Shown here one piece after another: positions 29,404-36,220 of a stretch of 64,000 bases of DNA. The notes below the pieces were generated by a model. It saw nothing but the letters and a program-made list of their open reading frames with translations. It was not told the DNA's origin and made no database searches. The DNA lies in NCBI RefSeq assembly GCF_918741295.1, contig NZ_CAKKNB010000001.1, positions 186,001-250,000 of the forward strand. Reading direction: 5' to 3'. Each line of letters starts with the position of its first letter. The stretch's first letter is position 1. The translations under genes were made by a program, and so were the position numbers. Source of the stretch: Aquabacterium sp. CECT 9606 (lineage in GTDB: Bacteria; Pseudomonadota; Gammaproteobacteria; Burkholderiales; Burkholderiaceae_C).

Positions 29404-30153
29404 ATGAGTACCGCCAGTTCCCCGCCCGTCAAACGCCGTCGATCGAACAATGTGACCCGTCCCTACGGCGGTGTACACGCCGAGACGCGCAAGCAGGAGC
29501 GCCGCACACGACTGATCGCGGCGGGGTTGGAAGTGATCGGGACGCGGGGCTACCACCTGTCGACCGTGCGCGACATCTGCGCCCAGTCGGGCCTGAGCGA
29601 GCGCTATTTCTACGAATCGTTCAAGGGCATGGGCCTGCTGTTCGAGGCCGTGTACGCCGAGTTGCACGCCGAGTTGCAGCGCCGCGTGATGGGCGCTTTC
29701 CTGGGGGCGGATGCCTTGCAGGCCGACCCCATGAAGCTGGCCGAGGCGGCCGTGGTCGCGTGGCTAAGCTTCCTCAAGGAAGATGTGCGCCGCGCCCGCA
29801 TCCTGCTGGTCGACGCAGTCACCGTCAACGATTCAAGTCAGCGCAATGCGAAGGCCGCGATCCAGGATTTCGCGGGCATCATCCGCGCCTTCGTCGACAT
29901 GCTGCACCCCAAGGTGGACAAGCTGGGCTACGACACCGCGTTGATGTCGTCCATCCTCACGGGCGCCTGTGTGCAGGCGGCCAAGTCCTGGATGTGGGGC
30001 GACTTCCAGCAGCCGGTGCCTGAAGTCGCCAAGCACCTGACCCTGGTGTTCGGCAGCCTGCACGATTTCTACGTGCGCGAAACCGCGCTGCTGGTCACTT
30101 CGCCAGTGGAAGAAGACGCCAAGCCAAAGTCTCGCCGCCGCGCAGGGGCTTGA
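29404..30153 (+). CDS. TetR/AcrR-family transcriptional regulator
   Basis: Repressor of 249 residues. The N-terminal helix-turn-helix reads [20 protein letters not shown] followed by [20 protein letters not shown] (about residues 38-78), as in the TetR family. The longer C-terminal ligand domain ends with a basic tail (KSRRRAG). An upstream ATG at 29389 is also in frame, but 29404 is closer to the domain start. The gene is divergent from the duplicated-module secreted protein and probably represses it through the inverted repeat at 29280-29311. Its 3' end overlaps the convergent pyrC gene by 59 bp. Confidence 0.88.
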
Positions 30154-31141
30154 TGCTGGCCTGATCGCCAAAGGGCAGGGACTCGGGCACGACCCAGGGC
30201 TCGCGCTTCAAGATGACCTTGTCCACATTGCGGGGTAGCTTGTAGAAGTCGGGCCCGTGGAAGCTGGCAAAGGCTTCCAGCTTGTCCAAAGCGCCCGCGT
30301 TTTCAAAAGCCTCTGCGTACAGCTCCAATGCGCAGGGCGCTGAATAGCAGCCCGCGCAACCGCTGGCGTGCTCCTTCAGGTTGGCCGCGTGCGGTGCGCT
30401 GTCGGTGCCCAGGAAGAACTTGGGCGAGCCGCTGGTGGCCACTTGCACCAGGGCCACGCGGTGCTCTTCGCGCTTGAGGATGGGCAGGCAGTAGTAGTGC
30501 GGCCGGATGCCGCCCATGAAGATGGCGTTGCGGTTGTAGAGCAGGTGCTGCGGCGTGATGGTGGCGCCCACGAAGTGGTCGGCTTCGCTCACGTACTGCG
30601 CGGCTTCCTTGGTGGTGATGTGCTCGAACACGATCTTCAACTCGGGGAAGTCGCGGCGCAGCGGGATCAGCTTCTCATCGATGAACGCCTTCTCGCGGTC
30701 AAACACATCGACCTCGTTGTCGGTCACTTCGCCATGCACGCAGAACACCAGGCCTTCGCGCTGCATGGCCTCCAGCACCGGGTAGGTTTTGCGCAGATCG
30801 GTCACGCCCGCGTCGCTGTTGGTGGTGGCGCCGGCCGGGTAAAGCTTGAACGCGACAGCGCCCATGGCCTTGGCACGCGCCACTTCTTCTGCGGGCGTGT
30901 TGTCGGTCAGGTACAGCACCATCAAGGGCTCGAACTTCACGCCAGCTGGCACGGCGGCGCGGATGCGGTCGCGGTAGCCCATGGCTTGCTCGGCCGTGGT
31001 CACGGGCGGGCGCAGGTTGGGCATGACGATGGCGCGTGCGAATTGCCGCGCGGTCGCGGGCACCACGCTGGCCATGGCGGCGCCATCGCGCACATGCAGG
31101 TGCCAGTCGTCGGGTCGGGTGAGGGTCAAGGTATTGCTCAT
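30095..31141 (-). CDS. pyrC: Dihydroorotase (E. coli PyrC type)
   Basis: Zinc-dependent amidohydrolase that closes carbamoyl-aspartate to dihydroorotate in pyrimidine synthesis. The 348 residues equal the E. coli class. The metal-binding DWHLHVRDG is at about residues 11-19, the carboxylated lysine is in [15 protein letters not shown] (about 103), His residues are in FCVHGEVTD and FEHITTKEA, and the catalytic Asp is in [13 protein letters not shown] at 31141 is immediately followed by [11 protein letters not shown] as in relatives. Its downstream end overlaps the convergent TetR gene by 59 bp. Confidence 0.96.
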
Positions 31142-31199
31142 GCCGTGATTGTTGCATTGAGGCGTCACAGGGGTCCCAAAACCCCCTAAGCCTTGGGCC

Positions 31200-31289
31200 C
31201 TAGTTCTAGGTTCCCCCCTAGCTTGACCGTCCCCAACCCTAGGGGCTTGGGGCCTTGGCACCCTTGTGGCGCTTGTCCGGCATCCCTAG
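31200..31289. repeat. Cluster of five CTAG tetranucleotides
   Basis: CTAG occurs at 31200, 31206, 31218, 31239 and 31286, several times in the larger contexts CCCTAG and CCTAGG. CTAG is a rare word in proteobacterial DNA, so five in 90 bp is striking. The cluster lies 70-160 bp before the C25 peptidase start, in the 218-bp gap between pyrC and that gene, and may be a binding array or a structural element. Confidence 0.5.
31255..31271 (+). promoter_or_regulatory. Sigma-54-like -24/-12 promoter for the peptidase gene
   Basis: TTGGCACCCTTGTGGCG carries the invariant GG (31257-31258) and GC (31269-31270) separated by ten bases, with TTGGCAC matching the -24 consensus exactly; the -12 part (TGGC instead of TTGC) is weaker. 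It lies 88 bp upstream of the peptidase start. Sigma-54 control by PrsK/PrsR is known for PEP-CTERM genes in related bacteria, which makes the site plausible, but the match is imperfect. Confidence 0.35.
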
Positions 31290-31359: not shown

Positions 31360-34053
31360 ATGCTGATTCACTCAATTTCCAACCGGCGGCGCGCGCTGTC
31401 CACCACCGCGCAAGCCGCTGCGGCCATGCTGGCCATGACCTCGATGGCCTGGGCCCAGACCGCCCCGACCTTGCACGTTGAAACCGTGTCTTCATCTCCC
31501 GATGCCACCGTGCTGCGCGTGGTCGTGCCCGTGCCCAAGCTGGACAGTGTTGAGACGCCCAGTGGCGTGTTCCAGCGCTTCTCGCTGGCCAACGGCGGCA
31601 GTGCCATCAATGACGTCCGCGAAATCGGCCTGCCTGAAGTGCCCTTGAGCGGCTTCTCGCTGGCCTTGCCTGTCGATGGCAAAGGCGACCCTTCGGTGGA
31701 AGTGATCCCCGAAGGTTCGATCAAGCGCTTGCAGGCCCGTCTTTACCCAGTGCAGCCGCCTGACAGCGCCGTCGCTGGCGATCGCAGTGCGCCCAAGTTC
31801 GAGTTCGATGCCGACCGCTGGTCCAAGGGCGTGAAGGCGCCTGGCCAGGACCAAGGCACCTTGCCCGTGTTCAAAGGCGATGCCAATGTGAACGGCTACC
31901 GGATCTCGCCCTACGGCTACAACCCGGCAGAGCAACTCATCACCTACTACTCCAGCTACCTGATCACCATCAAGCACCCTGGCAATTGCTTTGTCTACGA
32001 TCGCCTCCTGCTCAAAGGCGTGGTCGGATCGCAGAAGCTTGGCTTTGACGGCATCGACCAGCGCATCGAAAAACTGCCCCTGCCGGCCACGCAGTTCACC
32101 TTGAACAAGGACCTGCTCACCAAGCTGCGTTGCGCCCCGCCCATCACCATCAATCCCGCCATCCTGGGCGCGCGTTTCCTGATCGTCACGCACCCCAATT
32201 TCAAAGCTGCGGCCGACACCCTCAAGGTGCACAAGCAGGCCTTGGGCATCACCACCCGCGTGGTCACCACCGCGGAGATCACCGGCGCGGGCCCCAACGC
32301 GACCGAGGCCCAGATCCGCGCCTGGATCGCCAACTACTACAACACGCACCTGATTCGCCCGAAGTGGGTTCTGTTTGTGGGTGACGCCGAGTTCGTGCCC
32401 ACCCACTACGACCAGCCCAACATCTGGGACTCGGCCAAGAACGCCGGCGACATGTGGTACGGCCAATTCCTGCCGGGCGCCACCGCCACCACCATCCCGC
32501 CTTTCGGCATCGGCCGTTTCCCGGTGGACACGCTGGCGCAGGCCAACACCATCGTCTCCAAGGTGATGGCGTTCGAGAACTCGCCACCGGCCAACCCGAT
32601 CTTTGGGCAGGACTTCTACAGCCGACTCACGTTCGCGTCCTTCTTCCAGATCACCGAGAACGGCAACACCACCACCACCAAGGACAAGCGCTGGTTCGTG
32701 GAAACCTCTGAGAAGGTGCGTGACCATGCCGTGGGCAAGGGCTACAGCGTGGCTCGGCTGTACACGGCGGACGCCGCGGCCAATCCCCTGTTCTACAACA
32801 GCGGCGCGTCGATTCCCGCATCCCTGAAGAAGCCCGGCTTTGCTTGGGATTCGGATGTCAACGACGTGGCCGCCGCTGTCAACCAGGGCACGGCCATCCT
32901 GTACCACCGTGACCATGGCTGGTGGAACGGTTGGGGTGATCCGTCCTTCGGCACGGGCAACCTGGGCCTGATCTCGGTGACCAACAACGAGTTCCCGGTT
33001 GTGTTCAGCATCAACTGCGCCAGCGGTGTGTTCGACAACGAGACCGTGGACCTGGCCGGCAACAAGGTCGGTGCCGGTTACAAGACACCGGGCAGCGGCA
33101 CGCCCATCGCATCGGGCTCCACCTACTGGGCCGAGTCCTTCCTGCGCAAGGCCGATGGCGCATTGGCGGTGATTGGCGATTCGCGCCAGAGCAGCACCGT
33201 CGACAACAACCACCTGACCTTTGGTTTGTTCGATGCGGTTTTCCCTGGCCTGGTCCCGAGTTTCGGTTCCAACGTCAAGATCCAGCGCCTGGGTGACCTG
33301 TTGAACCACGCCAAGACCTACATCTCCGATGTGAGTACCGGCGCACAGGCCAACATCCACCCGTTCAACAGCGGCGGCACCCGCCCGGCCGTCGGAAACC
33401 TGCGTCAGGAACTCAACATCTACAACCTGTTGGGTGATCCGACCGTGAAGCTGCGCACCAGCCCACCCTGGAAGTTCAGCCTGCCCATCTTCACCCTCGA
33501 GAAGACGCTGGTGAAGATCAAGGTGCCCGTGCAACCTGGTTGCCTGACCTGCCCGCCCGAGCTGGAGCAGCCCGAGTGGGTCACCGTGGTGGCGTTCGAG
33601 CCCAAGACGGGCCGTGAACTGGGCCGCACCCTGCTCAACGTCGATGGCGTGGGCGAGATCGACCTGGGCGACAGCTTCACGGGCGACAACGTGCTGGTGC
33701 GCGTGGCCTCGCCCGATGGCAGCAGCACACAAGCGGCCATCAAGGAGACCGACGCCGATGGCGATGGCGTGCCGGACAGCCGTGACAACTGCGTGGCCGT
33801 GCCCAACAAGGAGCAGCAGGACACCGACGGTGACGGCTACGGCAACGCTTGCGATGCCGACCTGAACAACGACGGCTTCGTCAATGCCCTGGACCTGTCG
33901 ACCCTGCGTGCCCAGTTCGGCAAGCGCGGCGTGGCGGGTGACCTGAACGGCGATGGCCTGGTCAATTCGCTGGACGTCAGCCGCTTCAGCAAGCTGTTCG
34001 GCAAGGCCCCTGGCCCTTCTGCCCTGCACCTGCCCGTGGCCACCGCCAAGTGA
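31360..34053 (+). CDS. Secreted gingipain-like C25 cysteine peptidase with thrombospondin-3 and type I dockerin repeats
   Basis: Protein of 897 residues. A signal peptide covers residues 1-34 (ending AMTSMAWAQ). A propeptide-like region follows, and then the C25 peptidase domain (about 265-690). The catalytic pair is visible as His519 in LYHRDHGWWNGWG and Cys553 in VFSINCASGVFD; their 34-residue spacing is close to that of gingipain R. An Ig-like region follows, then thrombospondin-type-3 calcium repeats (DADGDGVPDSRDNC, DTDGDGYGNACD, about 800-833). The end is a type I dockerin of two EF-hand-like repeats, DLNNDGFVNALD and DLNGDGLVNSLD (about 834-885). It has no PEP-CTERM of its own. The cohesin gene is 48 bp downstream, so the peptidase is probably surface-attached by docking. 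Confidence 0.88.
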   Translation: MLIHSISNRRRALSTTAQAAAAMLAMTSMAWAQTAPTLHVETVSSSPDATVLRVVVPVPKLDSVETPSGVFQRFSLANGGSAINDVREIGLPEVPLSGFSLALPVDGKGDPSVEVIPEGSIKRLQARLYPVQPPDSAVAGDRSAPKFEFDADRWSKGVKAPGQDQGTLPVFKGDANVNGYRISPYGYNPAEQLITYYSSYLITIKHPGNCFVYDRLLLKGVVGSQKLGFDGIDQRIEKLPLPATQFTLNKDLLTKLRCAPPITINPAILGARFLIVTHPNFKAAADTLKVHKQALGITTRVVTTAEITGAGPNATEAQIRAWIANYYNTHLIRPKWVLFVGDAEFVPTHYDQPNIWDSAKNAGDMWYGQFLPGATATTIPPFGIGRFPVDTLAQANTIVSKVMAFENSPPANPIFGQDFYSRLTFASFFQITENGNTTTTKDKRWFVETSEKVRDHAVGKGYSVARLYTADAAANPLFYNSGASIPASLKKPGFAWDSDVNDVAAAVNQGTAILYHRDHGWWNGWGDPSFGTGNLGLISVTNNEFPVVFSINCASGVFDNETVDLAGNKVGAGYKTPGSGTPIASGSTYWAESFLRKADGALAVIGDSRQSSTVDNNHLTFGLFDAVFPGLVPSFGSNVKIQRLGDLLNHAKTYISDVSTGAQANIHPFNSGGTRPAVGNLRQELNIYNLLGDPTVKLRTSPPWKFSLPIFTLEKTLVKIKVPVQPGCLTCPPELEQPEWVTVVAFEPKTGRELGRTLLNVDGVGEIDLGDSFTGDNVLVRVASPDGSSTQAAIKETDADGDGVPDSRDNCVAVPNKEQQDTDGDGYGNACDADLNNDGFVNALDLSTLRAQFGKRGVAGDLNGDGLVNSLDVSRFSKLFGKAPGPSALHLPVATAK

Positions 34054-34101
34054 TCTTTCTTTTTTCTCAACCCTTTGTGATCTGAACCTCAAGGAATTCT
34101 C

Positions 34102-34650
34102 ATGAAACTGCATCAAACCCTCATCGCCGCCGCCGTGACCCTCGCTGCCTTCGCCACGCAAGCGCAAACGGTGTCCGTCATCGCCCCGGTGACCAACGTC
34201 AACATCGGCGACAGCTTCACCGTGGACCTCATGGCCACAGGCTTCCCCGACAAGATCTTTGGTGGCGGCTACAACATCGCCTTCGACGCCAGCATGCTCC
34301 AGCTGGACGACATCAGCTTCCCGGCCAACTGGGAGTTCCTGGTGGACAAGGGCACCCAGGTGGGCGGCACCGTGAGCGATGTGTTCTTCAACACCTTCTC
34401 GGCCCCCATCAAAGGTGACTTCCTGACCTCGACCCTGAAGTTCACGGCCATTGGCTCGGGCAGCTCGGCGATCACCCTGAGCGAATCGCCCTCCTTCCCC
34501 TTTGGCGATGAGTTCTCCAACGCCGTCAACGTGACTTACGTGGGTGGCACCGTGAACGTGGCGGCCGTGCCCGAGCCAGGGTCAGTGGCCCTGATGCTGG
34601 CCGGCCTGGGCGCCGTCGGCTTCGTGGCCTCGCGCCGCCGCCAAGGCTGA
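34102..34650 (+). CDS. Cohesin-domain protein with PEP-CTERM anchor
   Basis: Protein of 182 residues. A signal peptide (about 1-21, TQAQ) is followed by one cohesin-like jelly-roll domain (about 22-152): NVNIGDSFTVDLMATGFP, then GGGYNIAFDASMLQLDDI, then LTSTLKFTAIGSGSSAITL and the closing strand VGGTVNV all fit the cohesin pattern. The C-terminal signal is PEPGSVALMLAGLG, a hydrophobic helix and the basic SRRRQG. Cohesins bind dockerins, and the gene just upstream encodes a dockerin-bearing peptidase, so the two most likely form a pair with this protein as the membrane or surface anchor. A strong terminator follows. Cohesin assignment is from pattern; the pairing is inference. Confidence 0.85.
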   Translation: MKLHQTLIAAAVTLAAFATQAQTVSVIAPVTNVNIGDSFTVDLMATGFPDKIFGGGYNIAFDASMLQLDDISFPANWEFLVDKGTQVGGTVSDVFFNTFSAPIKGDFLTSTLKFTAIGSGSSAITLSESPSFPFGDEFSNAVNVTYVGGTVNVAAVPEPGSVALMLAGLGAVGFVASRRRQG

Positions 34651-34792: not shown

Positions 34793-36220
34793 ATGCGTTT
34801 GCACCGACTTGCCCATGCCGCTGCTGTTGCGGCCTTCCTGGTGGCCACCGTGCCATCCCACGCCAGCGTTGACCTGATCGCCGTGGGCTCCTTGGGCGGC
34901 ACCGCAGACCTGTCGGGCTTGTCGGGTGTGCTGGAAAGCGGTTTGCGCGCCGACGTCCTGGGCGGCATCGGATCAGGCCTGGCCTGGGCGGGCGGCGACA
35001 CCTTCCTGGTGCTGCCCGATCGCGGCCCCAACGCCACCAGCTACCTGGGTGGCGCGGCCGTGGACAACACCACCGCCTTCATCCCACGCTTTCACACCGT
35101 GACCCTGGACCTGACGGCCTCGGCGTCGGGTGGCTTGCCCTACACCCTGACCCCGACCCTCAAGGCCACGACCTTGTTGTACAGCCCCACGCCGCTGTCA
35201 TACGGCTCCACGGCCGGCCTGCCCAGCGGCACGCCCAGCCAGAACAAAGCGGGCCAGTACTTCTTCACCGGCCGGTCAGATGGGTTCTCGACCGGCAATT
35301 CGCTAATGCCCAGCAATGCCCGCCTCGACCCTGAAGCACTGCGCGTGTCCCGCGATGGCAAGAGCGTGTTCGTGTCCGACGAATACGGCCCTTACGTCTA
35401 CCAGTTCAACCGCGCCACCGGCGAGCGCATCAAGACCTTCACCTTGCCGGACCACTTCGCCGCACCGAACCAGAACGCGCTGGGGGCGGCCGAGATCAGC
35501 GGCAACAGCACGGGACGCGTGGCCAACAAAGGCATGGAAGGCCTGGCCATCAGCCCCGATGGCAAGACGCTGGTGGGCTTCATGCAAAGCCCGCTGGCGC
35601 AAGATGGCGGCGACGGTGGCCGTGCCAACCGCATCGTCAGCATCGACGTGGCCACCGGCGCCACCCATGAGTACGCGTACGACAACGTCATCAACGGCAA
35701 GGCTTACAACAGCAGCGAGATCCTGGCGCTGAACGACCACCAGTTCCTCATCCTGGAGCGCGATGGCAAAGGCCAGGGCGATGGATCGTCCGCCAAGGTC
35801 AAGCAAGTGTGGGCCGTGGACATCAGCGGCGCGCAGGACGTGAGCAGCTTGTCGGGTGAGGCCGCCCTGCTGGCCAAGGCGCCGACCAAGACCTTGTTCC
35901 TGGACATTGCCGGCGCCCTCAAAGCTTTTGGGGTGGCCGACACCGCCATCCCCGCCAAGCTCGAAGGCATGGCCTTTGGCCAGGACATCGTTGAAAACGG
36001 CGTGACCAAGCACACCTTGTACATCGCCAACGACAACGACTTCGTGCCAGGTGTGGCCGGCAGCAGCCGCTTCTACATCTTTGCATTCACCGATGCGGAG
36101 CTGGCCTCCAAAGGCCTGGCCTACACGCCCCAATCGATCACCTCGGTGCCCGAGCCTGAATCGTTCGCCTTGCTGGGCGCGGGCCTGGCCGTGATGACCT
36201 GGGTGCGTCGCCGTCGCTGA
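34793..36220 (+). CDS. Phytase-like esterase-domain protein with PEP-CTERM signal
   Basis: Secreted protein of 475 residues. The signal peptide is about 1-24 (VPSHA). A six-bladed-propeller domain of the 'esterase-like activity of phytase' family fills most of the rest: GSGLAWAGGDTFLVLPDRGPN, LDPEALRVSRDGKSVFVSDE, GMEGLAISPDGKTLVG and the KLEGMAFGQD / YIANDNDF stretches are typical. The C-terminus is PEPESFALLGAGLAVMTWVRRRR, where the PEP motif, helix and arginine cluster form an exosortase signal. A GGAG ribosome-binding site precedes the ATG at 34793. Behind its own terminator-separated promoter region, it is the third secreted protein of this locus. Confidence 0.88.
   Translation: MRLHRLAHAAAVAAFLVATVPSHASVDLIAVGSLGGTADLSGLSGVLESGLRADVLGGIGSGLAWAGGDTFLVLPDRGPNATSYLGGAAVDNTTAFIPRFHTVTLDLTASASGGLPYTLTPTLKATTLLYSPTPLSYGSTAGLPSGTPSQNKAGQYFFTGRSDGFSTGNSLMPSNARLDPEALRVSRDGKSVFVSDEYGPYVYQFNRATGERIKTFTLPDHFAAPNQNALGAAEISGNSTGRVANKGMEGLAISPDGKTLVGFMQSPLAQDGGDGGRANRIVSIDVATGATHEYAYDNVINGKAYNSSEILALNDHQFLILERDGKGQGDGSSAKVKQVWAVDISGAQDVSSLSGEAALLAKAPTKTLFLDIAGALKAFGVADTAIPAKLEGMAFGQDIVENGVTKHTLYIANDNDFVPGVAGSSRFYIFAFTDAELASKGLAYTPQSITSVPEPESFALLGAGLAVMTWVRRRR

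Follow-up and report, generated by a model that had tools for sequence, protein, structure and literature searches.

A 64,000-nt stretch of the Aquabacterium sp. CECT 9606 genome (contig NZ_CAKKNB010000001.1, positions 186,001 to 250,000; hereafter the window) contains two neighbouring genes, here called gene A and gene B, that appear to encode the two halves of a cohesin-dockerin attachment. Gene A specifies a cysteine peptidase ending in a dockerin, and gene B a small protein with one cohesin-like domain and a PEP-CTERM sorting tail (Table 1). The same two genes lie side by side in related bacteria, where similarly tailed cohesins also recur beside other dockerin-bearing proteins. An initial annotation of the window had described gene A as a C25 peptidase with a His519/Cys553 pair and a dockerin end, and the next gene, 48 bp away, as a cohesin-like domain with a PEP-CTERM tail; domain profiles, conserved residues and the predicted fold of gene B bear out both descriptions.

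Table 1. Positions of the two genes and their parts in the window
Feature	Position	Strand	Description
Gene A	31360..34053	+	897 aa; C25-family cysteine peptidase, thrombospondin type 3 (TSP3) repeats, C-terminal type I dockerin; proposed cargo
C25 peptidase domain	32176..33453	+	residues 273-698; PF01364, 161.6 bits; aligned with gingipain R
Catalytic His519	32914..32916	+	
Catalytic Cys553	33016..33018	+	
TSP3 repeats	33745..33855	+	about residues 796-832; PF02412, 35.9 bits; calcium-type linker preceding the dockerin
Type I dockerin ("plug")	33859..34005	+	about residues 834-882; two calcium loops; PF00404, 33.2 bits (cut-off 22.9)
Short post-dockerin tail	34006..34050	+	PGPSA motif, present in 112 of 121 relatives
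Intergenic gap, gene A to gene B	34054..34101	+	48 bp
Gene B	34102..34650	+	182 aa; single predicted cohesin, signal peptide (by eye), PEP-CTERM tail; proposed tether
Cohesin domain ("socket")	34168..34560	+	about residues 23-153
PEP-CTERM sorting signal	34564..34641	+	residues 155-180; PEP, hydrophobic stretch, arginines; PF07589, 31.5 bits (cut-off 20.7)

Domain make-up of the two proteins

Gene A belongs to peptidase family C25, as judged from a profile match over the cut-off and the catalytic His/Cys pair. Both catalytic residues are paired in the alignment with gingipain R and are invariant in all 121 aligned relatives. The N-terminus was judged by eye to be a signal peptide, and a propeptide-like region of the C25 type was matched just over its cut-off (PF08126, 22.5 bits; cut-off 22). 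The dockerin is of type I: its PF00404 match exceeds the curated cut-off, and in an AlphaFold2 model each of the two loops is followed by a helix (chain residues 15-23 and 42-51). In 120 of the 121 relatives, both loops keep their first and last D as well as the N at position 9. Solved structures related to gene A by sequence were COMP and the thrombospondins (for the TSP3 part), cellulosomal dockerins, and gingipain R. In the genome of the window, gene A was the sole dockerin protein over the PF00404 cut-off, and a Pfam scan of both proteins returned no carbohydrate-binding module.

The predicted structure of gene B has a cohesin fold; in the fold-comparison listings used for gene B, absence of a fold does not exclude that fold. 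PF00963, the cohesin profile, is carried by 24 of the 96 listed relatives of gene B, some of which are already named cohesin domain-containing in public records. The tail also exceeds the cut-off of TIGR02595, and four exosortases over cut-off are encoded in the same genome, which makes gene B a putative PEP-CTERM/exosortase substrate. Two of these four exosortase genes lie on opposite strands, approximately 3 kb or less apart (G000:C2:1012048-1016232). No terminator-like site was reported within the gap between the genes; six such sites were found around the pair, which is not above background (shuffle mean 4.1, standard deviation 2.1).

Conservation of the pair and variety of its cargo

A cohesin-family scan of named genome contigs yielded 12 loci, eight of them labelled Aquabacterium. 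The order C25 peptidase, dockerin tail, cohesin was found in all 12 (with the C25 part clipped by a contig edge in two), and the stop-to-start spacing was 29-50 bp in the 10 loci measured. In a sample of 299 genomes of the family, gene A was matched (E 1e-20) in 10 genomes, comprising eight full-length C25 relatives and two dockerin tails only. A cohesin gene lay directly downstream on the same strand in all eight genomes with a full-length C25 protein. One genome of the same genus (G033) had neither a gene A match nor a near-full-length cohesin among the matches listed. At five loci (L042-L045 and L047), none of nine other window genes was detected in the 11 kb fetched (E 1e-15); the pair thus persists where its surroundings do not, and the conserved unit is the two genes.

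Two flanking genes were considered as well. The gene at 30095-31261, presumably PyrC, was present in the 10 named loci reaching upstream and in two more (L046 and L048). Just 3′ of the pair lies a phytase-like esterase gene with a PEP-CTERM tail (34793-36220, forward strand; PF13449, 178 bits). It was rejected as a member of the unit, being present in L004-L007 and missing in L008, L009 and L011-L014 (E 1e-15; L010 and L015 end too early). In assembly JR-MC-A-240519-37 (Burkholderiales), two C25-cohesin pairs occur, each on its own contig (L014 and L015), which would point either to duplication of the pair as a unit or to a mixed bin.

The tailed cohesin is found with other partners as well. 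At least 12 near-full-length cohesin-family matches were present in the 299 genomes, and each of the 12 listed has an adjoining dockerin gene. Those listed comprised the eight C25 pairs and four loci with other dockerin proteins: (i) a GSDH-like protein with TSP3 repeats (L036; dockerin 45.0 bits); (ii) an unassigned protein of 761 aa (L037; 42.5 bits); (iii) a VWA7-like protein (L038; 16.9 bits, below cut-off); and (iv) a metallophosphoesterase (L039; 26.2 bits). Assignment of the L037 cargo as a PI-PLC was discarded, as it came from a motif seen by eye and had no profile match.

A census with PF00963 over the same genomes gave 44 rows in 34 genomes. According to stop-to-stop length, the open reading frames (ORFs) were split into 22 small (up to 682 aa), 17 large (798-1058 aa) and five giant ones (over 3000 aa), and only the small ORFs were counted as candidate tethers (L051-L069 plus L037, L044 and L046). 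A PEP-CTERM-type tail was found in 21 of the 22, the exception (L060) lying at a contig edge. Using a dockerin profile built here without any sequence from L051-L069 (120 C25-type tails plus six further dockerins), we detected a dockerin-bearing ORF adjoining 19 of the 21 tailed cohesins. As controls, 20 loci with PEP-CTERM matches and no cohesin part were picked by hand from the family-sample listing; the custom dockerin and cohesin profiles matched none of them (19/21 versus 0/20; Fisher p = 9e-10, uncorrected for relatedness). Fourteen of the 19 neighbouring dockerins had Pfam scores over the cut-off, from either a protein or a genome scan (11 plus L037, L044 and L046). Four were under it in the protein scan (L058, L059, L064 and L067), of which L058 and L059 passed in the genome scan, and the dockerin of L055 was supported solely by our own profile.

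The cargo at these 19 loci was diverse. Reprolysin-like M12B proteins (L051, L052, L054, L059 and L068) and GH10 hydrolases (L056, L057, L058, L062 and L069) were each found five times, and C25 peptidases twice (L044 and L046). Single loci encoded an M20 protein (L053), a metallo-beta-lactamase-fold protein (L055) and a PKD protein whose dockerin is internal (L066), and four cargo proteins were unassigned (L037, L064, L065 and L067). The initial annotation had called the pair a "minimal protease-some" set apart from polysaccharide-degrading systems; with GH10, metallophosphoesterase, GSDH-like and VWA7-like proteins among the cargo, that description is too narrow. From the coordinates, cargo came first in eight loci and the tether in six, and five pairs were divergent. 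Gene order tracked the cargo class: reprolysin-like cargo was divergent in 5/5 loci, GH10 cargo followed the tether in 5/5, and C25 cargo came first.

By eye, the dockerins fell into several flavours. The C25 type has the PGPSA tail. Dockerins on reprolysin, GH10, M20 and metallo-beta-lactamase-fold cargo have a Cys in or near loop 1 and a C-terminal Cys, and to judge from the sequences these paired residues could form a disulfide clasp. A CT...C ending was seen in L064, L065, L067, L099, L104, L106 and L113.

The large PF00963 ORFs (17 of the 44 rows) were rejected as further anchors: the four that were scanned are secretins, which form pores in the outer membrane, and carry a PF00963 cohesin at the C-terminus (L090, 3905-6445, reverse strand; L091, 1217-4114, forward; L092, 951-3407, forward; L094, 3381-6110, reverse). 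All 17 are of like length. Genome G033 holds one such large secretin-type cohesin ORF, yet no dockerin row in the PF00404 census.

That census approached the 299 genomes from the dockerin side and recovered 69 rows, spread over 53 genomes. Of these, 23 adjoin cohesins already found and one is L040; the dockerin of the window itself falls just above the E limit and is outside the 69 rows. We inspected 20 of the remaining 45 rows for cohesin neighbours. Five adjoin a PEP-CTERM-tailed cohesin (L099, L101, L104, L106 and L113), one a cohesin ORF in which no PEP match was seen (L105), and in one both domains occur in a single ORF (L095). Three genomes encode a dockerin protein of 613 aa and, over 1 kb away on the same strand, a cohesin ORF that has no PEP-CTERM tail (L096, 8134-9102; L097, 8321-9295; L100, 8317-9513; all reverse strand); possibly, these cohesins are another kind of anchor. 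Hence, most tailed cohesins have a dockerin neighbour, and many dockerins are without an adjoining tailed cohesin. Such lone dockerins may rely on an anchor from another locus or have no anchor at all. L040 (6618-9635) and L041 (6637-9678), both on the reverse strand, encode DUF11-repeat proteins that finish with TSP3 repeats, a dockerin-like tail and PGPSG. Neither has a cohesin in its vicinity, and L040 shares its genome (G034) with a C25-cohesin pair.

A sample at class level contained PF00963 rows in 15 of 274 genomes. Thirteen small-ORF rows corresponded to 11 loci, all of which were fetched. In L118 and L122, cohesin- and dockerin-like ORFs occur without an exosortase-like tail, and no cohesin-dockerin pairing was seen in five of the 11 loci. 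For L121, the neighbouring ORF matched our dockerin profile and was rejected as a dockerin protein, since Pfam assigns it RHS and PASTA repeats and no dockerin. L118 is a 6.4-kb contig from another family of the class, with four consecutive cohesin-profile ORFs, two of which also contain dockerin-like repeats.

A proposed tether and its alternatives

We think it probable that the dockerin of the C25 peptidase plugs into the exosortase-sorted single cohesin, so that the peptidase is likely tethered rather than free. From the gene pair we infer the following sequence of events. Signal peptides would carry both products out of the cytoplasm, and the peptidase would cross the outer membrane by some route. 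One of the four exosortases would process the PEP-CTERM tail of gene B, as expected from family knowledge, and sort the cohesin to the cell surface or the polymer matrix. The dockerin of the exported enzyme would then bind the cohesin in a calcium-dependent manner. Read in this way, the C25 pair would be one case of a general two-gene module of cargo plus tether, in which the cargo varies and plug and socket stay together. Because related bacteria keep socket genes beside many plug-bearing proteins, the pair likely represents an interchangeable surface hold for secreted enzymes. The two-component docking put forward in the initial annotation thus has strong comparative support, in the conserved pair as well as in the tailed cohesins beside varied dockerin cargo.

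Several observations weigh against this interpretation. Gene B itself gave no PF00963 match (profile search, E up to 1), and the proposed check of both proteins against dockerin and cohesin profiles therefore succeeded for the dockerin alone. Two of the 21 tailed cohesins (L061 and L063) had no dockerin gene in about 6 kb on either side, and 10 of the 20 inspected dockerins, as well as L040, had no cohesin nearby. As the genomes of the census are related, its counts do not represent independent events. In the class sample, beyond the family, only three of the 11 loci show the arrangement (L123-L125); their cohesins carry an exosortase-like tail by eye, and their dockerins were detected by the custom profile and are not confirmed by Pfam. 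The claim is limited to the family, since such pairs are few in the class sample and their dockerins are without Pfam support.

For structural modelling, use was made of the reading frame that genes A and B have in common: the intervening stops were read as Trp, and the resulting chain of dockerin, linker and cohesin was modelled with AlphaFold2. In the first model (37 aligned rows), the predicted template modelling score (pTM) was 0.58 and the dockerin was of low confidence (predicted local distance difference test, pLDDT, in blocks of 37-64). In the second (59 aligned rows), pTM was 0.56 and the dockerin was well folded (blocks of 89-94 over residues 11-50). Neither model gave a confident placement of dockerin relative to cohesin. 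As a pTM of 0.56 is about the value expected from the cohesin alone, no claim is made on an interface, and the models weigh neither for nor against docking.

Of the alternative explanations, an unlikely one is that the cohesin binds the dockerin as a partner in folding, export or self-protection and not as a lasting surface anchor. A dedicated neighbouring gene would suit an inhibitor or chaperone equally well on general grounds. However, a propeptide-like region is already present in the C25 protein, and PEP-CTERM tails are sorting signals. In addition, the partners of tailed cohesins include GH10 hydrolases, a metallophosphoesterase and a VWA7-like protein, none of which would require an inhibitor.

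We hold it to be quite unlikely that the dockerin is a calcium-stabilised end module or binds a partner encoded elsewhere, with the cohesin in a separate role and the adjacency inherited and non-functional. The lone dockerins (10 of 20 inspected, plus L040 and L041) and the two unpaired tailed cohesins would fit such a view. Against it, three gene orders and no fewer than seven types of cargo are represented among the adjoining genes. The adjacency also distinguishes tailed cohesins from the PEP-CTERM controls and persists where other window genes are not nearby, and the genome of the window has no competing dockerin over cut-off. Docking in the periplasm or at the inner membrane instead of the cell surface or polymer matrix is highly improbable. 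In its favour, the analysis found no route by which the product of gene A would cross the outer membrane, and the present data do not fix the location of the exosortase substrate. Against it, the cargo includes GH10 hydrolases, which usually work outside the cell, and a report on Aquincola links a PEP-CTERM protein to bound extracellular polymers (PMC9850573).

Returning to tethering, we lean towards a wider scheme in which exosortase-bearing Gram-negatives have a general, modular surface display. Single-cohesin PEP-CTERM anchors would each stand beside their own dockerin-tagged exoprotein, with cargo swapped freely among peptidases, GH10 hydrolases, phosphoesterases and dehydrogenases, and the distinct dockerin flavours (PGPSA-tailed, Cys-clasped and CT...C-tailed) would represent separate plug-socket pairs. 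If the binding is true, enzyme display on proteobacteria could draw on these naturally occurring cohesin-dockerin pairs and their different flavours.

Relation to known systems

Cohesin-dockerin attachment itself is already known from the cellulosomes of Clostridium, Acetivibrio and Ruminococcus. Shared features are an enzyme-borne type I dockerin, a type I-like cohesin fold and, as proposed here, attachment of an extracellular enzyme to a surface-held partner. In contrast to cellulosomes, there is one cohesin per protein, and neither a scaffoldin nor a carbohydrate-binding module was seen in the two gene products; the bacterium is Gram-negative, the cohesin has a PEP-CTERM tail and the cargo is a peptidase. 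A search for a multi-cohesin scaffoldin in the genome of the window gave nothing with PF00963, a profile that also misses gene B, and one near-full-length match with the family profile among the matches listed. With its single cohesin, no carbohydrate-binding module and one dockerin protein over cut-off, the pair is not a cellulosome; in its working it would resemble a minimal form of cellulosome attachment.

The literature searched did not contain an exosortase-type single-cohesin tether with swappable dockerin cargo; that search did not extend to Peer et al. 2009, which surveys non-cellulosomal modules. Cohesin, dockerin and exosortase came together there in a paper on anaerobic methanotrophic (ANME) archaea. 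The role of dockerins and cohesins outside cellulosomes is described as unknown in PMC5244752. Non-cellulosomal cohesins of known structure served as a comparison set, namely modules of the C. perfringens GH33 and GH84 enzymes (2vo8, 2jh2 and 2w1n) and Archaeoglobus fulgidus 2xdh. According to the structure titles, the cohesin of C. perfringens is part of the enzyme itself, whereas in the present pair the enzyme carries the dockerin and the cohesin is a small stand-alone protein that bears a sorting tail.

Gingipains and PorU have a type IX secretion signal at the C-terminus. Gene A shares with them the C25 catalytic domain and the His/Cys pair, and ends instead in TSP3 repeats and a dockerin; its match to the PorU NCBIfam model (51 bits) was below the cut-off of 420. 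To our knowledge, most PEP-CTERM proteins have no known job. The pairing described here would offer both them and the dockerins and cohesins a concrete role, that of a minimal two-protein tether holding secreted enzymes with the Gram-negative cell or its polymer matrix. The closest comparison for gene B is PepA of Aquincola tertiaricarbonis, likewise from Burkholderiales and with the same C-terminal sorting tail. Overexpression of this PEP-CTERM protein in an Aquincola strain is reported to have decreased released soluble exopolysaccharides and increased bound polymers (PMC9850573). Gene B differs from PepA in its cohesin domain and in the dockerin-bearing gene beside it, and its match to the PepA NCBIfam model reached 31 bits, far under the cut-off of 80.

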